From Streptomyces violaceusniger Tu 4113 (lineage in GTDB: Bacteria; Actinomycetota; Actinomycetes; Streptomycetales; Streptomycetaceae): DNA of 64,000 nt. Made by a program: the position numbers and the translations under genes. The stretch spans positions 5,766,001 through 5,830,000 of the forward strand of contig NC_015957.1 in NCBI RefSeq assembly GCF_000147815.2, read 5' to 3'. A model generated the notes under the pieces. That model was given only the letters and a program-made list of their open reading frames with translations, had not been told where the DNA came from and made no database searches. Below are positions 55,239 through 63,595 of the stretch, piece by piece (position 1 is the first letter of the stretch; each line of letters starts with the position of its first letter).

Positions 55239-56810
<1,572 letters not shown>

Positions 56811-56813
<3 letters not shown>

Positions 56814-56868: not shown

Positions 56869-59742
56869 CTAGCTCATCTGGCGTCGCACCAGCTCGTGCA
56901 GCTTTCCGCCCGGGACGGCCATCAGCTCGGCCGGGGCGCCCTGCTCCACGATCCGGCCGTCCTCCATGACCAGCACGCGGTCGGCGTCCATGACGGTCGA
57001 CAGCCGGTGCGCGATCACCAGCCGGCTGGCGTGGAGACGGCGGGTGCTGTCGATGACGATGCGCTGGGTCTCGTTGTCCAGGGCGCTGGTGGCCTCGTCG
57101 AAGAAGAGGATGCGCGGACGGCGGATCAGGGCCTGGGCGATCATCAGCCGCTGCCGCTGACCACCGGAGATGGCACCGCTGCCGGAGATCATGGTCTGGA
57201 GCCCCATCGGCATCTGGCGGATGTCCTCGGCCAGACCCGACAGTTCGGCGGCCTCCATGGCCTCCTCGGGGGTGAACGGCTCGGCGCCGCGGATGCAGTC
57301 GAGCACCGTGCCGCCCAGCGGCTGGGCGTTCTGGAGGACCACCCCGCACTGGCGGCGCACGGCCGCCTGGTCGAGGGCGGCGAGGTCCTGGCCGTCGTAG
57401 AGCACACTGCCGGACACCGGCCGTTCGAAGCCGATGAGCAACCGCAGCAGGGTCGACTTGCCGCAGCCGCTCGGGCCGACGACGGCCACGAATTCGCCCG
57501 GCCGGATCTCCAGTGACACATCGTCGAGCACCAGCGGCCCGTCGTCGCCGTAGCGGAAGGTGAGGTTTCTGGCCCGCAGGTCACCGGAGAGCGTCCCCGG
57601 CTGGGCGCTGCCGCCGCGGACCTCCGGCGGCTCATCCAGGATCGGCTTGACCTGCTCGAACATGGGCAGCACCGCGACCACCGAAACCAGGGCGTTGGTG
57701 AGCTGCGTAAGGGAGGTGAGCAGCATGGTCACGGAGGTGTTGAAGGTCAGAAACGCCCCCGCCGACATGCTGCCCCGCGCCGGGCCGGCCAGCAGCATGA
57801 ACACGGTGAGGGAGACCAGCGGAAGGTAGACGGCGTCCAGCACCTGGGTGAGGTTCTTGATGCGCCCGGTGCGCTGGTGCAGATCGCGGGAGTGGGCGAA
57901 ACCACGGGCCCAGGCCGCGTAGGCGAAGTTCTCGGCCGCGGCGACGCGCAGCTTGGGCAGCCCGCGCAGGGTCTGGAACGCCTGGTTGTTGAGCTTGTTC
58001 TCGCTCTCCACCAGCCGTCGCTGCCAGCGCACCTGCCACAGCCCCATCCCGAGGAAGACCCCGGAGACCACCAGCAGTACGGCGATCACCGCGAGCGCCA
58101 GGGAGGCGCTGTAGTACAGCAGCAGGGCGAGGTTCATCGCGCCCACGGTGCCGGCCTGGAGGGCCGTCGGGGCGATCCCGGACACCACCCTGCGCATGGT
58201 GCTGATGCCCATCGCCGCGCTGGCCAGCTCTCCGGTGGAGCGCTGGGCGAAGAAGGTGGTGGGCAGCCGCAGCAGCCGGTCCCACACCGCGGGCTGGAGG
58301 GTGGACTCCAGCCGCCCCTCGAGACGCAGCAGGGTCAGGTTCTGCAGCAGCATGAAGGCGGCCGCGACGACGCCGGAGACGATCAGGGCCAGGGAGATCT
58401 GGACGATGGGGCTCTTCTCGGCGCGGGGCACGAAGCCGCCCAGCACCTGGCCGGTGGCGAGCGGCACCAGCGCGCCGAGCGCCACCGTCACCAGCCCGGC
58501 GATCAGGAGGTTGCGGGCGTCCCCGGCGGCGCCGCGCACGCTGAAGCGCATCAGCCGCCACATCGTCATCGGCCGGTCGGGCAGCGGACGGTAGAACATC
58601 ACGGCCCGCGGCTCGAACTCCTCCGCATTGCCGCCGCCGACGCGGATCCGCAGGCCCGAGGCGGGGTTGACCGCCTCGTACCGGCCGCGCCGCCACAGCA
58701 GCGCCACCGGGGCCCCGGACTTGGCGCGGTAGCCCACCAGGGGTCCGGCGTCCTCCCGCCACCAGCCGCCCTCCAGCCGGACGGCGCGGGTGCGGATCCG
58801 GGCGTGGGCGGCGATGCGCTCCACCGGGTCCGTACGGTCCTCGGTGGCGCGTCCCCTCGGCGGTTCGGGCAGGGTGATCCCGGCGGCCTCCGCCACCCGG
58901 CGGCACACCGCGTGCACCGCGTCGTCGGTGCTCTCCTCCGACGGCCGCCGCTCCCGCCGCTGCCCTCCGATGGAGGCGATCAGCGCCTGGTCGGCGCGGG
59001 TGCGCACGGCCTCACCGGCCCGGATGCCGGCCGCGGTGCGGTCCGCGTGGGCCCGTTCCATGGTCTCGATCCAGCGGTCCACGGCGGTGCCGAGGCGGTA
59101 CTGCTGGTTGACCATCCGCTGCCACAGCGCGCCGTCGATCAAGAGGTCACCGGCGGCCTGAGCGCTGTACTCGGCGCCGTAGCGCACACTGCCGGGCGGC
59201 ACCGGCAGCCAGAGCAGGTCCTCGTCGGCCGCCTCCGCCTCGGGCGCGGCCCCGCCGTCCAGCGGGGCCTGGAAGAGGACGCCGAGGCTGCGGCTCACCC
59301 CGAGCGCCACGGCGTGCTCCAGCGGGGTGGGCGGGGTGTCCTGGAATCCGCCGCCCCCGTGGGTGCCGTACGGGTCGTGGGTCCGGCCCGTGCCGTACGC
59401 GTCGTACGCCTCCGGGCGGTACAGCTCGCGCAGCGGGATGCGGCGCACCAGGCAGTCCTGCGAGGGCCGGCCCAGCAGGGTGTGGCGTGGCCCCTCGACC
59501 GGGCCCGGGAGCGCGGCGCCCGTCTCCAGCCGGCCGAGGAAGTGCCACTGCCCCTCCTCGGCGGCGTCGACCGCGAACAGGTCCAGGGCCCCGCCGACGA
59601 CGAGCCAGAGCACCTGTGGGCCCTCCAACGGCAGGCTGCGCAGCCCGGCGCGGTCGACGGGCGTGCCGAGGGCGCCCAGCGCCTGGACCACCGCGTCGCC
59701 GCCGTCCGCGGCCACCGCCGCGGCCGGGTGAACGGACGCCAT
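56869..59742 (-). CDS. NHLM-type bacteriocin export ABC transporter, permease/ATPase subunit without peptidase
   Basis: A 957-residue ABC half-transporter of the NHLP/NHLM bacteriocin export type. The long N-terminal soluble region (about 1-400) is characteristic of this subunit and has no C39 protease motif. A six-helix permease spans about 415-700 (LLIAGLVTVALGALVPLATG and following). The ATPase has Walker A GPSGCGKST near 754, signature ISGGQRQRL near 868 and Walker B ILFFDEATSALD, followed by the switch IAHRLST. AAGGAG 8 nt upstream supports ATG 59742, 1 bp after the peptidase-transporter stop, so the two are coupled. It presumably pairs with that protein to export the precursor peptide encoded at 62934-63131. 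It ends convergent with the DHA2 exporter. Confidence 0.93.
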   Translation of the reverse strand: MASVHPAAAVAADGGDAVVQALGALGTPVDRAGLRSLPLEGPQVLWLVVGGALDLFAVDAAEEGQWHFLGRLETGAALPGPVEGPRHTLLGRPSQDCLVRRIPLRELYRPEAYDAYGTGRTHDPYGTHGGGGFQDTPPTPLEHAVALGVSRSLGVLFQAPLDGGAAPEAEAADEDLLWLPVPPGSVRYGAEYSAQAAGDLLIDGALWQRMVNQQYRLGTAVDRWIETMERAHADRTAAGIRAGEAVRTRADQALIASIGGQRRERRPSEESTDDAVHAVCRRVAEAAGITLPEPPRGRATEDRTDPVERIAAHARIRTRAVRLEGGWWREDAGPLVGYRAKSGAPVALLWRRGRYEAVNPASGLRIRVGGGNAEEFEPRAVMFYRPLPDRPMTMWRLMRFSVRGAAGDARNLLIAGLVTVALGALVPLATGQVLGGFVPRAEKSPIVQISLALIVSGVVAAAFMLLQNLTLLRLEGRLESTLQPAVWDRLLRLPTTFFAQRSTGELASAAMGISTMRRVVSGIAPTALQAGTVGAMNLALLLYYSASLALAVIAVLLVVSGVFLGMGLWQVRWQRRLVESENKLNNQAFQTLRGLPKLRVAAAENFAYAAWARGFAHSRDLHQRTGRIKNLTQVLDAVYLPLVSLTVFMLLAGPARGSMSAGAFLTFNTSVTMLLTSLTQLTNALVSVVAVLPMFEQVKPILDEPPEVRGGSAQPGTLSGDLRARNLTFRYGDDGPLVLDDVSLEIRPGEFVAVVGPSGCGKSTLLRLLIGFERPVSGSVLYDGQDLAALDQAAVRRQCGVVLQNAQPLGGTVLDCIRGAEPFTPEEAMEAAELSGLAEDIRQMPMGLQTMISGSGAISGGQRQRLMIAQALIRRPRILFFDEATSALDNETQRIVIDSTRRLHASRLVIAHRLSTVMDADRVLVMEDGRIVEQGAPAELMAVPGGKLHELVRRQMS

Positions 59743-59743
59743 G

Positions 59744-62026
59744 TCAGTGCTCCTTCATCAGCTCGGCGTACGGGCCTCCGGCGGCGGCGAGGTCCTCGTG
59801 CCGTCCGCGTTCGACGACCGTGCCGCGGTTCAGGACGAGGATCTCGTCGCTGTCCCGCACGGTGCTGAGCCGGTGGGCGATCACCACACACGCACAGCCG
59901 CGGCGGCGCAGGTTGTCCATGACGATCTGCTCGGTACGCGCGTCCAGGGCGCTGGTGACCTCGTCCAGGACCAGCACGCTGGGGCGGCGCACCAGGGCGC
60001 GGGCGATCTCCAGCCGTTGCCGCTGGCCGCCGGAGAAGTTGCGGCCGTCCTGCTCCACCCGGCAGTGGATCCCCTCCGGGCGCCGTGTGATCACATCGTC
60101 GTAGAGCGCGGCGTCCCGCAGGGCCTCCACCACCGCCTCGTCCGGGATCGACGGGTCCCAGAGCGCCACGTTGTCCCGCACCGTGCCCTCGAACAGGAAG
60201 ACGTCCTGGTCGACGAAGGAGACCGAGGCGGCCAGCGCACCGCGGGGGATGTCCTCCAGACGCTGTCCGTCGATGCGGATGACCCCCTCCCAGGGGGCGT
60301 AGAGGCCGGAGACGAGCCGGGAGACGGTGGACTTGCCGCTGCCGGAGGCGCCGACCAGCGCCACCTGGCGGCCGGGGCCGACGGACAGCGAGAAGTCGCG
60401 CAGCAGCGGTTCGTCCAGCGGGCTGTAGCCGAAGGTGATGTTCTCCAGTGTCACCTGCCCGGTCAGCCGGCGGGTGTCCTCGCGCGGCTCGTCGCGGGTG
60501 TAGAGGGAGTCCACCGGGAAGTTCTCCACGTCCTTGAGCCGGGTCACATCGGCGGAGAAGTCCTGGATGCGTCCGGCCACTCCGTTGAGCCGGGTGATGG
60601 GCGCGGTGAAGCGGGTCACCAGTGCCTGGAAGGCCACCAGCAGACCGATGGAGATATGGCCCTCGACGGCCCGCAGCCCGCCGATCCAGAGAATGAGGGC
60701 GCTGTTGAGGGTGGCGAGGGTGGGGGCGACCACGGCCAGTACGGCGCTCGGCACGCCGAGGCGCTGCTGCTCCTCCAGGGTGATGGCGTGCTGTCCGGCC
60801 CAGCGGCGGAAGAAGCCGGTCTCCCCGCCGGTGGCCTTCACCGTCTCGATGAGCTGGAGACCGGTGTACGAGGTGGTGGTCAGCCGCGCGGTGTCGGCCC
60901 GCAGCTTCTGGGTCCTGGTGGCCCGCAGCCGCACCACCACCCGTATCGCCACCACGTTGAGCAGCGCCAACCCGACGCCGACACCGGTGAGTTGGGGATC
61001 GTAGGTCCACAGCAGAAAGGCGTAGAGCACCACGACGACCCCGTCGACGGCCGCGGCGGCCAGATCGCGGGCGAGGGTTTCGGCGACGGTGTCGTTGGAA
61101 CGCAGCCGCTGGACCAGGTCGGCCGGGCTGCGCTGGGCGAAGAAGGTGACGGGCAGCCGCAGCAGATGCCGCAGGAACCGTGCGCTGCTGAGGGTGGAGG
61201 AGATGATGCGTCCGCGCAGCAGGTTCGCCTGCTGGACGCCGGTCAGCACGGCGGTGAGCACCACCGCCACGGCCATGGACGCGAACAGTGGGTCCAGCGT
61301 CGAGTCCTGGCCGCCGATCAGGAAGGTGTCGATGAAGGTGCGGCTGAGCGCCGGGACCGCGGCTCCCACCGCCACCAGCAGCAGGCTGGCCAGCAGCGAG
61401 GCCAGCAGGGTGCCCGTGGTGCCGCGCATGCGCGGCGGCAGGGCGCCCAGCACCCCGGGACGGCGCCCGCCCCGGCGGAAGGAGTCCTCGGGTTCGAGGA
61501 CCAGGACCACACCGGTGAAGCTGGTGTCGAATTCCTCGACGGGGACGAAACGGCGCCCCTTGTCGGGGTCGTTGATGTGGACGCCGCGCTTGCCGAACCG
61601 CCGTCCCATTCCGTCGTAGACGACGTAGTGGTTGAACTCCCAGAACAGGATGGCCGGGGCCTTGACCTCCGCGAGGGCCTCGGGCTCCATCTGCATGCCC
61701 TTGGCGCGCAGACCGTAGCTCCGGGCGGCCTTGAGCAGATTGCTGGCGCGCGATCCGTCCCGGGAGACACCGCAGGCGATCCGCAGCTCCTCCAGCGGCA
61801 CATGGCGCCCGTAGTGGGCGAGCACCATGGCGAGCGACGCCGCACCGCACTCCAGGGCCTCCATCTGGAGCACGGTGGGGGTGCGCACGGTCCGGCGCCG
61901 GGTCTTCCTCGGTCCGGCTCCGCCACGTGGCGCCCGGCGCCGTCCGCGGGCCGGCTGGGGGCGGCGCGCTCCGCTGCTTCCGGCGGGTGCGGGCCGGGGC
62001 GGCCCGCCCTGGTTCGTCGCGGTCAC
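59744..62026 (-). CDS. C39-peptidase ABC transporter processing a double-glycine leader
   Basis: A 760-residue bifunctional exporter. It has an N-terminal C39 peptidase that cleaves after the Gly-Gly of a leader, then a six-helix permease, then an ATPase. The peptidase catalytic set is intact: Cys60 in QMEALECGAASLAM, His133 in EFNHYVVYDG and Asp153 in INDPDKG. The ATPase has GASGSGKST, FSGGQRQRLEIA and VLVLDEVTSALD. An Arg/Pro-rich N-terminal extension of about 50 residues precedes the peptidase and is longer than usual. GTG 62026 is chosen because it overlaps the HlyD stop as GTGA; TTG 62038 is an alternative. It is the expected processing enzyme for the leader ending VAGG encoded upstream. 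Confidence 0.94.
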   Translation of the reverse strand: MTATNQGGPPRPAPAGSSGARRPQPARGRRRAPRGGAGPRKTRRRTVRTPTVLQMEALECGAASLAMVLAHYGRHVPLEELRIACGVSRDGSRASNLLKAARSYGLRAKGMQMEPEALAEVKAPAILFWEFNHYVVYDGMGRRFGKRGVHINDPDKGRRFVPVEEFDTSFTGVVLVLEPEDSFRRGGRRPGVLGALPPRMRGTTGTLLASLLASLLLVAVGAAVPALSRTFIDTFLIGGQDSTLDPLFASMAVAVVLTAVLTGVQQANLLRGRIISSTLSSARFLRHLLRLPVTFFAQRSPADLVQRLRSNDTVAETLARDLAAAAVDGVVVVLYAFLLWTYDPQLTGVGVGLALLNVVAIRVVVRLRATRTQKLRADTARLTTTSYTGLQLIETVKATGGETGFFRRWAGQHAITLEEQQRLGVPSAVLAVVAPTLATLNSALILWIGGLRAVEGHISIGLLVAFQALVTRFTAPITRLNGVAGRIQDFSADVTRLKDVENFPVDSLYTRDEPREDTRRLTGQVTLENITFGYSPLDEPLLRDFSLSVGPGRQVALVGASGSGKSTVSRLVSGLYAPWEGVIRIDGQRLEDIPRGALAASVSFVDQDVFLFEGTVRDNVALWDPSIPDEAVVEALRDAALYDDVITRRPEGIHCRVEQDGRNFSGGQRQRLEIARALVRRPSVLVLDEVTSALDARTEQIVMDNLRRRGCACVVIAHRLSTVRDSDEILVLNRGTVVERGRHEDLAAAGGPYAELMKEH

Positions 62027-62829
62027 GGGAGCAGCCAATCGCTGGGATGTTGGTCGGCCAGATGGACGGTGCCGCTGGTCAGGGTCATGGAGCCGAGGAC
62101 GAACGGCGGGCCCTCGGGGGACGACCAGCGGTAGCCGGAGCGGGTGCCGGAGCTGCGCTGAAGGCGTACCTGGACGGCGACCGGCGGGCCGTGCTTGGAG
62201 AACTCCTCGCCGAGTTGCTCACTGCCGAGGTAGGAGCCGATCTGCTGGCTCGACTGGGCGGTCCGGCCGACGGCGCGCACTTCACCGCGGAGCACACCGT
62301 AGGTCTGGGTGGGCGCGGACTGCACACTGAGGTCGACCGACGCGCCCGGCCGCACCGACGCCGCCCGGTCCGCGGGGATGTACAGGGTCGCGACCAGGGG
62401 ATCGTCGGAGTGGCCGACCCGCTCCACGGAGGCGACGTTGGCGCCGGTGGTCAGCACGGAGCCGATCGAGGCGGTGAGGGTGGTGAGCCGGCCGCCCGCG
62501 ATGGTGCGCACGACCGTGGTGCCACGGGTGGTGCGGACCTTCAGCAGTGGTGCGCCCGCCGGGAGGGTGCTGCCCTCCTGGGCGAGGACGGAGGTCACCT
62601 GGCCGGCGATCGGGCTCTGCAGCACATAGCTGCCCTGGCCGTGGGTGAGGATCCCGGTGGCATCAAGGGTGTTGGACACGGTGCCGGTGACGGCCCATAC
62701 GGCGGCACCGGCCATGACCGCCATCGTGACCGCCAGTGCCAGCCATCCCTGGGGGCGGGCGTAGCGCACCGGCAGGTCGATGTCCTCTGCCGACTGCAGC
62801 TTGGAGAGGGCCTGCTGGCGGAACTGCAC
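62023..62829 (-). CDS. HlyD-family secretion adaptor of the NHLM exporter
   Basis: A 268-residue membrane-fusion-type protein. A short cytoplasmic start (QFRQQALSKLQSAEDIDLPV) is followed by one membrane segment at about residues 28-50 (GWLALAVTMAVMAGAAVWAV). The extracytoplasmic lipoyl/barrel-sandwich part is VLQSPIAGQVTSVLAQEGSTLPAG (partial quote: SPIAGQVTSVL). A beta-barrel region with LYIPADRAASVRPG follows. This matches the NHLP-system secretion protein type. The coiled-coil hairpin of Gram-negative HlyD is missing, as expected in a bacterium without an outer membrane. GTG 62829 follows GAGGAAA at about 7 nt. It overlaps the next gene and lies 104 bp after the precursor gene. Confidence 0.9.
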   Translation of the reverse strand: MQFRQQALSKLQSAEDIDLPVRYARPQGWLALAVTMAVMAGAAVWAVTGTVSNTLDATGILTHGQGSYVLQSPIAGQVTSVLAQEGSTLPAGAPLLKVRTTRGTTVVRTIAGGRLTTLTASIGSVLTTGANVASVERVGHSDDPLVATLYIPADRAASVRPGASVDLSVQSAPTQTYGVLRGEVRAVGRTAQSSQQIGSYLGSEQLGEEFSKHGPPVAVQVRLQRSSGTRSGYRWSSPEGPPFVLGSMTLTSGTVHLADQHPSDWLLP

Positions 62830-62884
62830 GAGAGTCTTTCCTCAGCCGCGAAGGGAGTGATCAAGGGGGGCCGCGGACCGCCGA

Positions 62885-62913
62885 GTGCCCCGGACCAGGC
62901 AGGCCCGGGGCAC
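62885..62913 (-). terminator. Intergenic hairpin between precursor and exporter genes
   Basis: GTGCCCCGG and CCGGGGCAC form a perfect 9-bp stem with an 11-nt loop, 20 nt past the precursor stop. Such a hairpin commonly acts as a partial terminator or mRNA stabiliser, giving more precursor than transporter. That role is inferred from position. Confidence 0.6.
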
Positions 62914-62933
62914 AGGGGAGCGGTAAAGCAGCC

Positions 62934-63131
62934 TCAGAGGGTGCCGACGACCCCACCGACGATGCCGGTGGTGTTCAGGCCGGTGAGGCCGTCCACGGTG
63001 CCGGTCACGGTGCCGAGGACGCCGGTCACCGGGCCGAGGACGTCGCCCACGGGGCTGGCGATCCCGCCCGCCACGTTGTCCAGCTCGGCGTCGGAGATCT
63101 CCTGGGTCGCGACCTTGGGCGCGTTGTTCAT
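62934..63131 (-). CDS. Double-glycine-leader peptide precursor (bacteriocin-like)
   Basis: A 65-residue precursor. The leader, residues 1-23, ends EISDAELDNVAGG, a textbook double-glycine leader (acidic ELxxV...GG) for C39 peptidases. The predicted core (24-65) begins IASPVGDVLG and is 42 residues long. It is built on a 7-residue repeat (PVGDVLG, PVTGVLG, TVTGTVD) with many GxxxG spacings (G29/33/37, G40/44/48, G56/60, G59/63). It has no Cys, no Lys or Arg and two Asp, so it is hydrophobic and net negative. AGGGAG about 8 nt upstream supports ATG 63131. The full export set follows downstream. No lanthionine synthetase, radical enzyme or other modification gene is near, so an unmodified or lightly modified secreted peptide is likely. 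The activity is unknown. Confidence 0.88.
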   Translation of the reverse strand: MNNAPKVATQEISDAELDNVAGGIASPVGDVLGPVTGVLGTVTGTVDGLTGLNTTGIVGGVVGTL

Positions 63132-63595
63132 TGTTGCGTCTCCCTTGGGTGAACGTCTCTTTGAGCTTGCAACAGCGCACGGGGGCCGAGGGGAATCAGC
63201 TCCCGCGGCATGGTCACGGGATGCCCGGAGGACACCGGGCTCCGTGAAATGCCTGAGCGCGGAAGGGATGTAACCACGGGGTCCGCCACGCGGCGAATCA
63301 CCCACGAGCCGGAACCGGGCATTCCGCCACTTTCCGATCACACGACGAACACAGTCGCGCACCTCATCGACGCCATTCCCTCACAGGAAGGTCACCGACC
63401 TCACCTGGTATCGCATCCCTCGGGCGAGGTGACGCGCGTCATTTCGGTTCGGACCGCCAGGGCCGGGGCCGAGGTGGCACATGAGCCGGGTGGCACACAT
63501 GGCGTCTGTGTAACAGGTGTGCCGATCGCTTGAAGACCAGGCGAACAAGGCCGCATGCGAGGGCGTGACGGGGCGGGAATGCGACATGTGCGACT
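63132..63595. other. 464-bp gene-free stretch upstream of the peptide operon
   Basis: There are only short, unconvincing frames on both strands. It must carry the minus-strand promoter of the precursor operon, but I cannot pick a clear -35/-10 pair. It contains a short GCCCGG/CCGGGC inverted repeat near 63222-63239 and a direct repeat at 63473-63497. Confidence 0.6.
63473..63497. repeat. Direct repeat GGTGGCACA
   Basis: Two identical 9-bp copies (63473-63481 and 63489-63497) start 16 bp apart, within the noncoding region upstream of the peptide operon. A partial inverted copy (TGTGCC) lies near 63518. It is possibly a regulator-binding pair; weak evidence. Confidence 0.35.

Follow-up and report, generated by a model that had tools for sequence, protein, structure and literature searches.

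A four-gene peptide-export unit of Streptomyces, its distant same-leader peptide genes and a possible role at the hyphal surface

The surface biology of Streptomyces is built around chaplins, rodlins and SapB. A stretch of 64,000 nucleotides from Streptomyces violaceusniger Tu 4113 (contig NC_015957.1, positions 5,766,001 to 5,830,000; hereafter the window) carries, at 56869-63131 of its minus strand, genes for a short peptide precursor with a leader ending in VAGG, an HlyD-type adaptor and two ATP-binding cassette (ABC) proteins, the first with a C39 peptidase domain (hereafter ABC1 and ABC2). What does this unit export, and to what end? The most likely answer, still a tentative one, is an unmodified surface-active peptide of the hyphae, secreted by the unit itself. 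This had been one option in a preliminary description of the window made from its letters alone. Relatives of the unit are joined by extra peptide genes with the same leader, so that the exporter locus looks like the hub of a wider set.

The export unit and its inheritance

Both ABC proteins exceed the NCBI curated cut-offs for the NHLM export system (TIGR03796 and TIGR03797; Table 1). The Cys64/His137/Asp157 set of ABC1, reported as intact in the preliminary description, is present in all 74/74 loci with the window included. In sequence, residues 55-763 of this transporter match the solved structure 4ry2 (PCAT1), and residues 58-761 match ComA (8hf4), both being peptidase-containing exporters. 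Neither PCAT1 nor ComA is known to need a second ABC protein or HlyD. The HlyD adaptor of the window lies slightly under the TIGR03794 cut-off: its best stretch (residues 104-268) aligns with positions 253-417 of the 421-position model, much of the middle of which is unmatched. The adaptor is perhaps shortened because no outer membrane needs bridging.

A scan of a GTDB-based collection with ABC2 gave 166 relatives, the best 80 of which yielded 77 loci (73 actinobacterial and four from other phyla). A precursor homologue lies upstream in 66/73 actinobacterial exporter loci, and the remaining seven are on contigs broken off at, or within, the 5' end of the C39 transporter gene; the precursor is therefore not a chance open reading frame (ORF). 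The four loci from other phyla gave no match with this precursor model. The order precursor, hlyD, ABC1, ABC2 is kept in 66/66 sequences tested (65 loci and the window), a check suggested by the preliminary description, whose four genes, VAGG leader and 42-residue core with no Cys, Lys or Arg and two Asp are all confirmed. Its remark that neither a maturation enzyme nor an immunity gene lies nearby also fits. Besides the four genes, the commonest neighbour family occurs in only 13/74 loci (heuristic gene caller, ORFs of at least 80 amino acids (aa), clustering only), and no dedicated immunity gene is conserved beside the unit in the 74 loci, ORFs under 80 aa not having been called. Separately, seven draft assemblies (L010, L016, L019, L035, L049, L056, and L076) share a break point, to within about 150 bases, close to the 5' end of the C39 transporter gene, which marks a hotspot of sequencing or assembly dropout.

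ABC2 is found at E 1e-180 or better in 110 of 150 evenly drawn Streptomyces genomes, in single copy each, with 106 over the cut-off. An order-level sample gave ABC2 in 85/119 genomes, every match being in Streptomyces. Two of these genomes have two copies; both second-copy regions were fetched (L137 and L138) and contain no precursor of this family, so that another cargo is likely for them. In a phylum-level sample, matches at E 1e-150 or better are confined to 11/296 genomes and 4/198 genera. A plasmid-borne origin was considered and is not supported, since only 2/72,556 plasmid records match ABC2 (E 1e-150), both of them Streptomyces replicons of about 1 Mb.

Distant leader genes and a shared upstream element

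Leader genes were sought in the same 150 Streptomyces genomes with the precursor profile and a leader-only profile (E 0.001 or better). They occur in 108/110 exporter-positive and 0/40 exporter-negative genomes (Fisher p 2e-34, uncorrected for kinship); one of the two exceptions (G119) is a contig end and the other (G038) has a divergent ABC2 below the cut-off. Two to four leader genes, that is one to three extras, are present in 47/108 leader-bearing genomes, with 56 extras in total. Fifty of the 56 are separated from the exporter-linked gene by over 200 kb or sit on a different contig, and one (in G144) adjoins that gene, places being listed for 51. Exporter-linked precursor genes are hereafter called hubs and the extras satellites. 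The preliminary description had called the unit self-contained. This stands for the window's own genome, where these profiles find only the linked precursor, but not for the relatives, which put distant peptide genes under the same leader and upstream element.

The 40 satellite regions fetched (L107-L126 and L192-L211) share the leader and fall into several distinct core types, among them one with an NPHAS..GQYHHVG pattern and one ending in TTSL. The neighbourhoods of the first 20 were clustered, eight were read and ten neighbour proteins were searched in Pfam. These proved to be major facilitator superfamily (MFS) permeases, an acyltransferase, a metallo-hydrolase, a flavin oxidoreductase, a sigma-70 region 2 protein, an alpha/beta hydrolase and an amidohydrolase, with two lacking a match; no C39 exporter, LanM, YcaO or radical SAM protein is among the ten. 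Satellites L122 and L123 share one core type and are each followed immediately by a gene of one and the same family, whose L122 member is the sigma-70 region 2 match, a possible regulator.

Do hubs and satellites also share control sequences? Alignment of upstream regions in three clades reveals a block GTGCTTTGATCC, present as GTGGTTACATCC in the window's clade, about 57 to 180 nucleotides (nt) before the start codon. A TTGG-like block lies about 18 to 23 nt further upstream. This -35-like block has T at -20 in 98% of 57 distinct hub sites and G at -18 in 18/18 satellite sites. A sense-strand search with the consensus TGSTTWSATCC, allowing at most one mismatch, located the element in 63/66 hubs and 18/20 satellites of a first set, against 0/86 on the antisense strand and 5/330 in random stretches, all five at zero mismatches and none at one, this control being drawn from the same loci so that it may overlap true sites. 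Among held-out genes the element is present, again with at most one mismatch, in 18/19 hubs and 18/19 satellites (antisense 0/40). Two of the 40 held-out genes are excluded from these counts as non-independent (L184, which equals the L033 stretch, and L211, whose site was seen as L169); with them the figures are 19/20 and 19/20. The element is missing from hubs L058, L067 and L069 (3/66), from held-out hub L189 (1/20) and from satellites L121 and L124 (2/20, one core type), and held-out satellite L206 (1/20) has two mismatches.

The element is not fully specific. Genome-wide, the 12-mer RTGSTTWSATCC has 20 sites in six genomes compared with three for a reversed-pattern control; 12/20 are upstream of leader genes and 8/20 elsewhere (two of them before mshD-like genes), and 2/3 sites in the window's own genome are not before a leader gene. 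Two genomes (L164 and L166) carry a GTGGTTACATCC block some 60 nt ahead of an acetyltransferase gene named, by reading, as mshD-like. The shared element may mark a regulon, or promoter and leader may have been duplicated together from a common ancestor; both can be true at once. A second recurrent feature is a hairpin stem of at least 11 bp behind the precursor gene in 37/66 sequences, as opposed to 13/330 control stretches, which is consistent with more precursor than transporter being made.

A plausible if provisional model is that of a genus-wide Streptomyces secretion regulon. In this model a single hub would export the peptide encoded beside it, and in close to half of the leader-bearing species sampled it would also serve one to three mostly distant peptides with the same leader and element and with different cores. 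Together these might form an exchangeable, unmodified coat that tunes the hyphal surface through one regulator switch.

The core peptide and its possible role

Core statistics were taken from 65 of the 66 precursor loci and the window, giving 65 distinct cores (L072 has a precursor and was left out because it failed the leader regular expression). All 65 lack Cys, Lys, Arg and Trp and have a net charge of -1 to -3, and the core is Thr-rich. Glycine spacing in the window core is non-random, since only 2/500 shuffles reach its best power (period 3.75, 19 periods tested). In 35 representative cores, glycine pairs are enriched at spacings 4, 7, 8, 11 and 15 (weakly 3) and depleted at 1, 2, 5, 6, 9, 10 and 13; shuffle z-scores from such related sequences overstate independence. 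Power peaks at a period of 3.67 for Gly and 3.6 for Val/Leu/Ile, with a mean phase difference of 179 degrees. These periods and opposite faces favour an amphipathic helix over a strand, despite the high Val/Thr content. Hydropathy is moderate: the best 19-residue Kyte-Doolittle mean reaches 1.6 in 1/65 cores and is 1.28 in that of the window. The preliminary description was thus borne out in its anionic, glycine-patterned, unmodified-looking core and in its doubt about a classic cationic bacteriocin, and not in its suggestion of membrane insertion, if a classic transmembrane segment is meant.

The core evolves faster than the leader (omega 0.59 vs 0.18, from 228 pooled non-independent pairs with strong GC bias ignored), and a TGxN motif within it is invariant or nearly so in 45 aligned members. 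The letters drift but composition and pattern stay, which suggests selection on physical properties. No family is over its cut-off for the precursor, and thus none names a characterised bacteriocin, close homology to which would have counted against the preliminary description. The leader models for NHLP (TIGR03793, 12.1 bits, cut-off 50.9) and Nif11 (TIGR03798, 12.7 bits, cut-off 32.3) are both missed, as are the CTB family (NF038167, 16 bits, on the leader, cut-off 32) and Pfam L_biotic_typeA (PF04604, 17.3 bits, cut-off 21.7, residues 6-25 only). The precursor profile has no matches among solved structures at E up to 1.

S. violaceoruber P0141 (71 aa) belongs to the window precursor's family and was used as a stand-in for SCO0753 of S. 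coelicolor A3(2), a strain presumably counted as S. violaceoruber. The four-gene unit SCO0753-SCO0756 was described in 2019 together with a similar surface hypothesis (PMC6629963). It has the same order, a Cys-free hydrophobic peptide, HlyD and two ABC components, and it is matched to the window by this description and not by the sequence of SCO0753, which is given as 77 aa in that paper (another start codon is likely) compared with 71 for P0141 and 65 in the window. The authors remark that the four genes are conserved and that the peptide is hydrophobic and lacks Cys, and they raise a possible influence on the surface of the hyphae (PMC6629963). SCO0753 shows the largest difference of any gene when a strain with activated Sco5282/Sco5283 is compared with the null mutant: in the dispersed strain with activated Sco5282 kinase its log2 change is +6.3 and that of SCO0754-0756 is +4.25 to +4.4, and all four are almost silent in the null mutant (PMC6629963). 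SCO0753 is also up in an aor1 mutant (PMC5733086), and SCO0756 appears in two further transcriptomes (PMC5882110 and PMC6414726).

How might the unit act? A switchable promoter of its own would drive the precursor gene, in S. coelicolor under direct or indirect control of Sco5282/Sco5283, and the hairpin behind that gene may hold transporter transcripts below precursor transcripts. The C39 domain would cut after VAGG, and ABC1, ABC2 and the short HlyD adaptor would carry the 42-residue core across the single membrane. Once outside, we infer, the core folds into amphipathic helices of weak hydrophobicity, in which a small/acidic face of glycines lies across from one of Val/Leu/Ile. These could associate with each other and with interfaces and so alter the vegetative hyphal surface, with less clumping. 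Pointing to a surface-active peptide are the two ABC scores with the intact C39 set; the co-occurrence of leader and exporter; anionic cores without Cys, Lys, Arg or Trp and with opposed Gly and Val/Leu/Ile faces; a core that changes faster than its leader yet keeps its composition and pattern; an exporter that is widespread in Streptomyces, single-copy and without a conserved immunity-like neighbour; and the high level of SCO0753-0756 in the activated, dispersed strain relative to the null mutant (PMC6629963).

Several points weigh against this. Product and activity are predictions from the genes. The high Val/Thr content would equally suit beta or amyloid assembly, and the AlphaFold2 model of the precursor family, with helices at 35-50 and 55-64, has a mean predicted local distance difference test (pLDDT) score of only 60.7 and a predicted template modelling (pTM) score of 0.24, too weak for a fold search. 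The core omega also allows mild diversification. Satellite cores vary, with Lys or Arg in 8/19, Cys in 2/19 and a net charge of 0 or +1 in two, so that a single physical role for all cores is not established. In S. coelicolor the null mutant grows like the wild type, 437 genes differ in the comparison, and the authors name reduced matB expression, whose change by quantitative PCR was not significant, as a sufficient cause of dispersal (PMC6629963).

An unmodified bacteriocin that inserts into or permeabilises competitor membranes, its producer being protected by the exporter or its own envelope, is a less likely alternative. The exporter class and double-glycine leader are those of bacteriocins, satellite cores differ between and within species as competitive weapons do, and two of five satellites tested come near the class IIb cerein model, mostly through the leader (19.4 and 16.6 bits, cut-off 21.5). 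Yet hubs have no conserved immunity-like gene next to them, and in the part of the satellite surroundings examined none was recognised either; about seven in ten sampled Streptomyces carry a hub with the same kind of core, so that few kin would be sensitive; hub cores are anionic without Lys or Arg; and hydropathy is too low for classic transmembrane insertion in 64/65 cores. A secreted signal, with the core or a fragment of it sensed by kin, is improbable: pheromones are among the cargoes of C39 exporters (one of the solved relatives is ComA), a two-component system is needed for expression (PMC6629963) and the TGxN motif is invariant or almost so, but no receptor gene is conserved beside the unit, core letters drift faster than those of the leader, and 42 to 56 residues is long for a signal. 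Modification in trans by an unlinked enzyme, yielding a true ribosomally synthesized and post-translationally modified peptide (a lanthipeptide, as the NCBI name has it), is very improbable: the core is Thr-rich and the window's genome has four LanC-like genes, but with Cys in 0/65 cores no lanthionine can form inside them, the LanC-like gene closest to the unit lies some 286 kb off (no such domain within 280 kb; radical SAM and YcaO elsewhere in the genome were not searched), hubs have no conserved neighbour beyond the four genes, and the ten satellite neighbours in Pfam include no LanM, YcaO or radical SAM protein.

The absence of Cys also led to rejection of the lanthipeptide reading (type A2/class II) and makes the name "type A2 lantipeptide", carried by most named entries among 120 listed of 1183 relatives, misleading. 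One paper calls such a gene an antimicrobial type A2 lantipeptide, taking the database name at face value (PMC13047742). If the surface-active reading is true, about seven of ten Streptomyces species would possess a further, unmodified class of hyphal surface peptides, that name would be corrected, and the unit would matter for pellet formation and for dispersal, which limit fermentation in practice. The satellites and shared element make the idea testable, as they come with predictions of the export tag, the promoter element and the cargo.

Known systems and the layout of the window

The unit is real, is built of ordinary machinery and was known already, and the surface idea is likewise in print. 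What is new here is a regulon-like extension of satellites with the hub leader and a shared upstream element, along with the helical core pattern. The open PMC literature, outside which most subscription papers lie, yielded no mention of distant satellites, of the element or of the helical pattern, and the element sequence gave no relevant match there. The NHLM/NHLP export system has the same three kinds of export component (Haft et al., 2010; PMC2887384), both ABC proteins of the window passing its curated cut-offs and the HlyD adaptor lying just below its own. It differs in that the window leader is neither NHLP nor Nif11, no maturase was found and HlyD is shortened. Cyanobacterial C39/HlyD bacteriocin clusters similarly combine a double-glycine precursor, HlyD, a C39 transporter and sometimes a second ABC protein (PMC3140520); these clusters and the CTB family differ in phylum and cores, and the CTB score is below cut-off. 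Cyanobacteria are known to have precursors and maturases at distant sites, which gives dispersal as such a precedent (PMC2887384; PMC3140520). The variant here is dispersal in which no maturase was found and a putative promoter element is shared. SapB is a lanthipeptide and chaplins use Sec. With these secreted hydrophobic surface peptides of Streptomyces only a functional analogy is drawn, as it is in PMC6629963, and no sequence kinship is claimed.

Table 1. Features of the export unit in the window
Feature	Position	Strand	Basis or remark
Precursor peptide gene, 65 aa	62934..63131	-	Homologues upstream of the C39 transporter gene in relatives
Leader MNNAPKVATQEISDAELDNVAGG, 23 aa, ends VAGG	63063..63131	-	Conserved leader; cut after GG predicted from C39 family
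Core, 42 aa, 0 Cys/Lys/Arg, two Asp, glycine face with helical period ~3.7	62937..63062	-	Composition and periodicity
GC-rich hairpin between precursor and hlyD, arms GTGCCCCGG..CCGGGGCAC	62885..62913	-	Possible attenuator or processing site; putative role
HlyD-type adaptor, 268 aa	62023..62829	-	TIGR03794, 146.5 bits, cut-off 156.2
C39 peptidase/permease/ATPase (NHLM ABC1), Cys64/His137/Asp157	59744..62038	-	TIGR03796, 1002.5 bits, cut-off 853.3
Second permease/ATPase (NHLM ABC2), 957 aa	56869..59742	-	TIGR03797, 884.8 bits, cut-off 709.4
-35-like block GATTCG of shared upstream element	63294..63299	-	Kept in hubs as GATTGG/GATTCG
Candidate shared promoter/operator block GTGGTTACATCC (commoner form in family GTGCTTTGATCC)	63266..63277	-	Upstream alignment and held-out test

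ABC2 has about 270 extra N-terminal residues relative to TIGR03797 (window 58924-59742, minus strand), the model match starting at residue 274. This extension is kept in 12 aligned Streptomyces members, and AlphaFold2 gave no confident fold for the N-terminal 400 residues (mean pLDDT 39.1). Beside the unit and convergent with it lies a DHA2-type MFS efflux gene (55245-56813); the same family adjoins the unit in 9/74 loci, and the loci seen with it are close relatives of the window.

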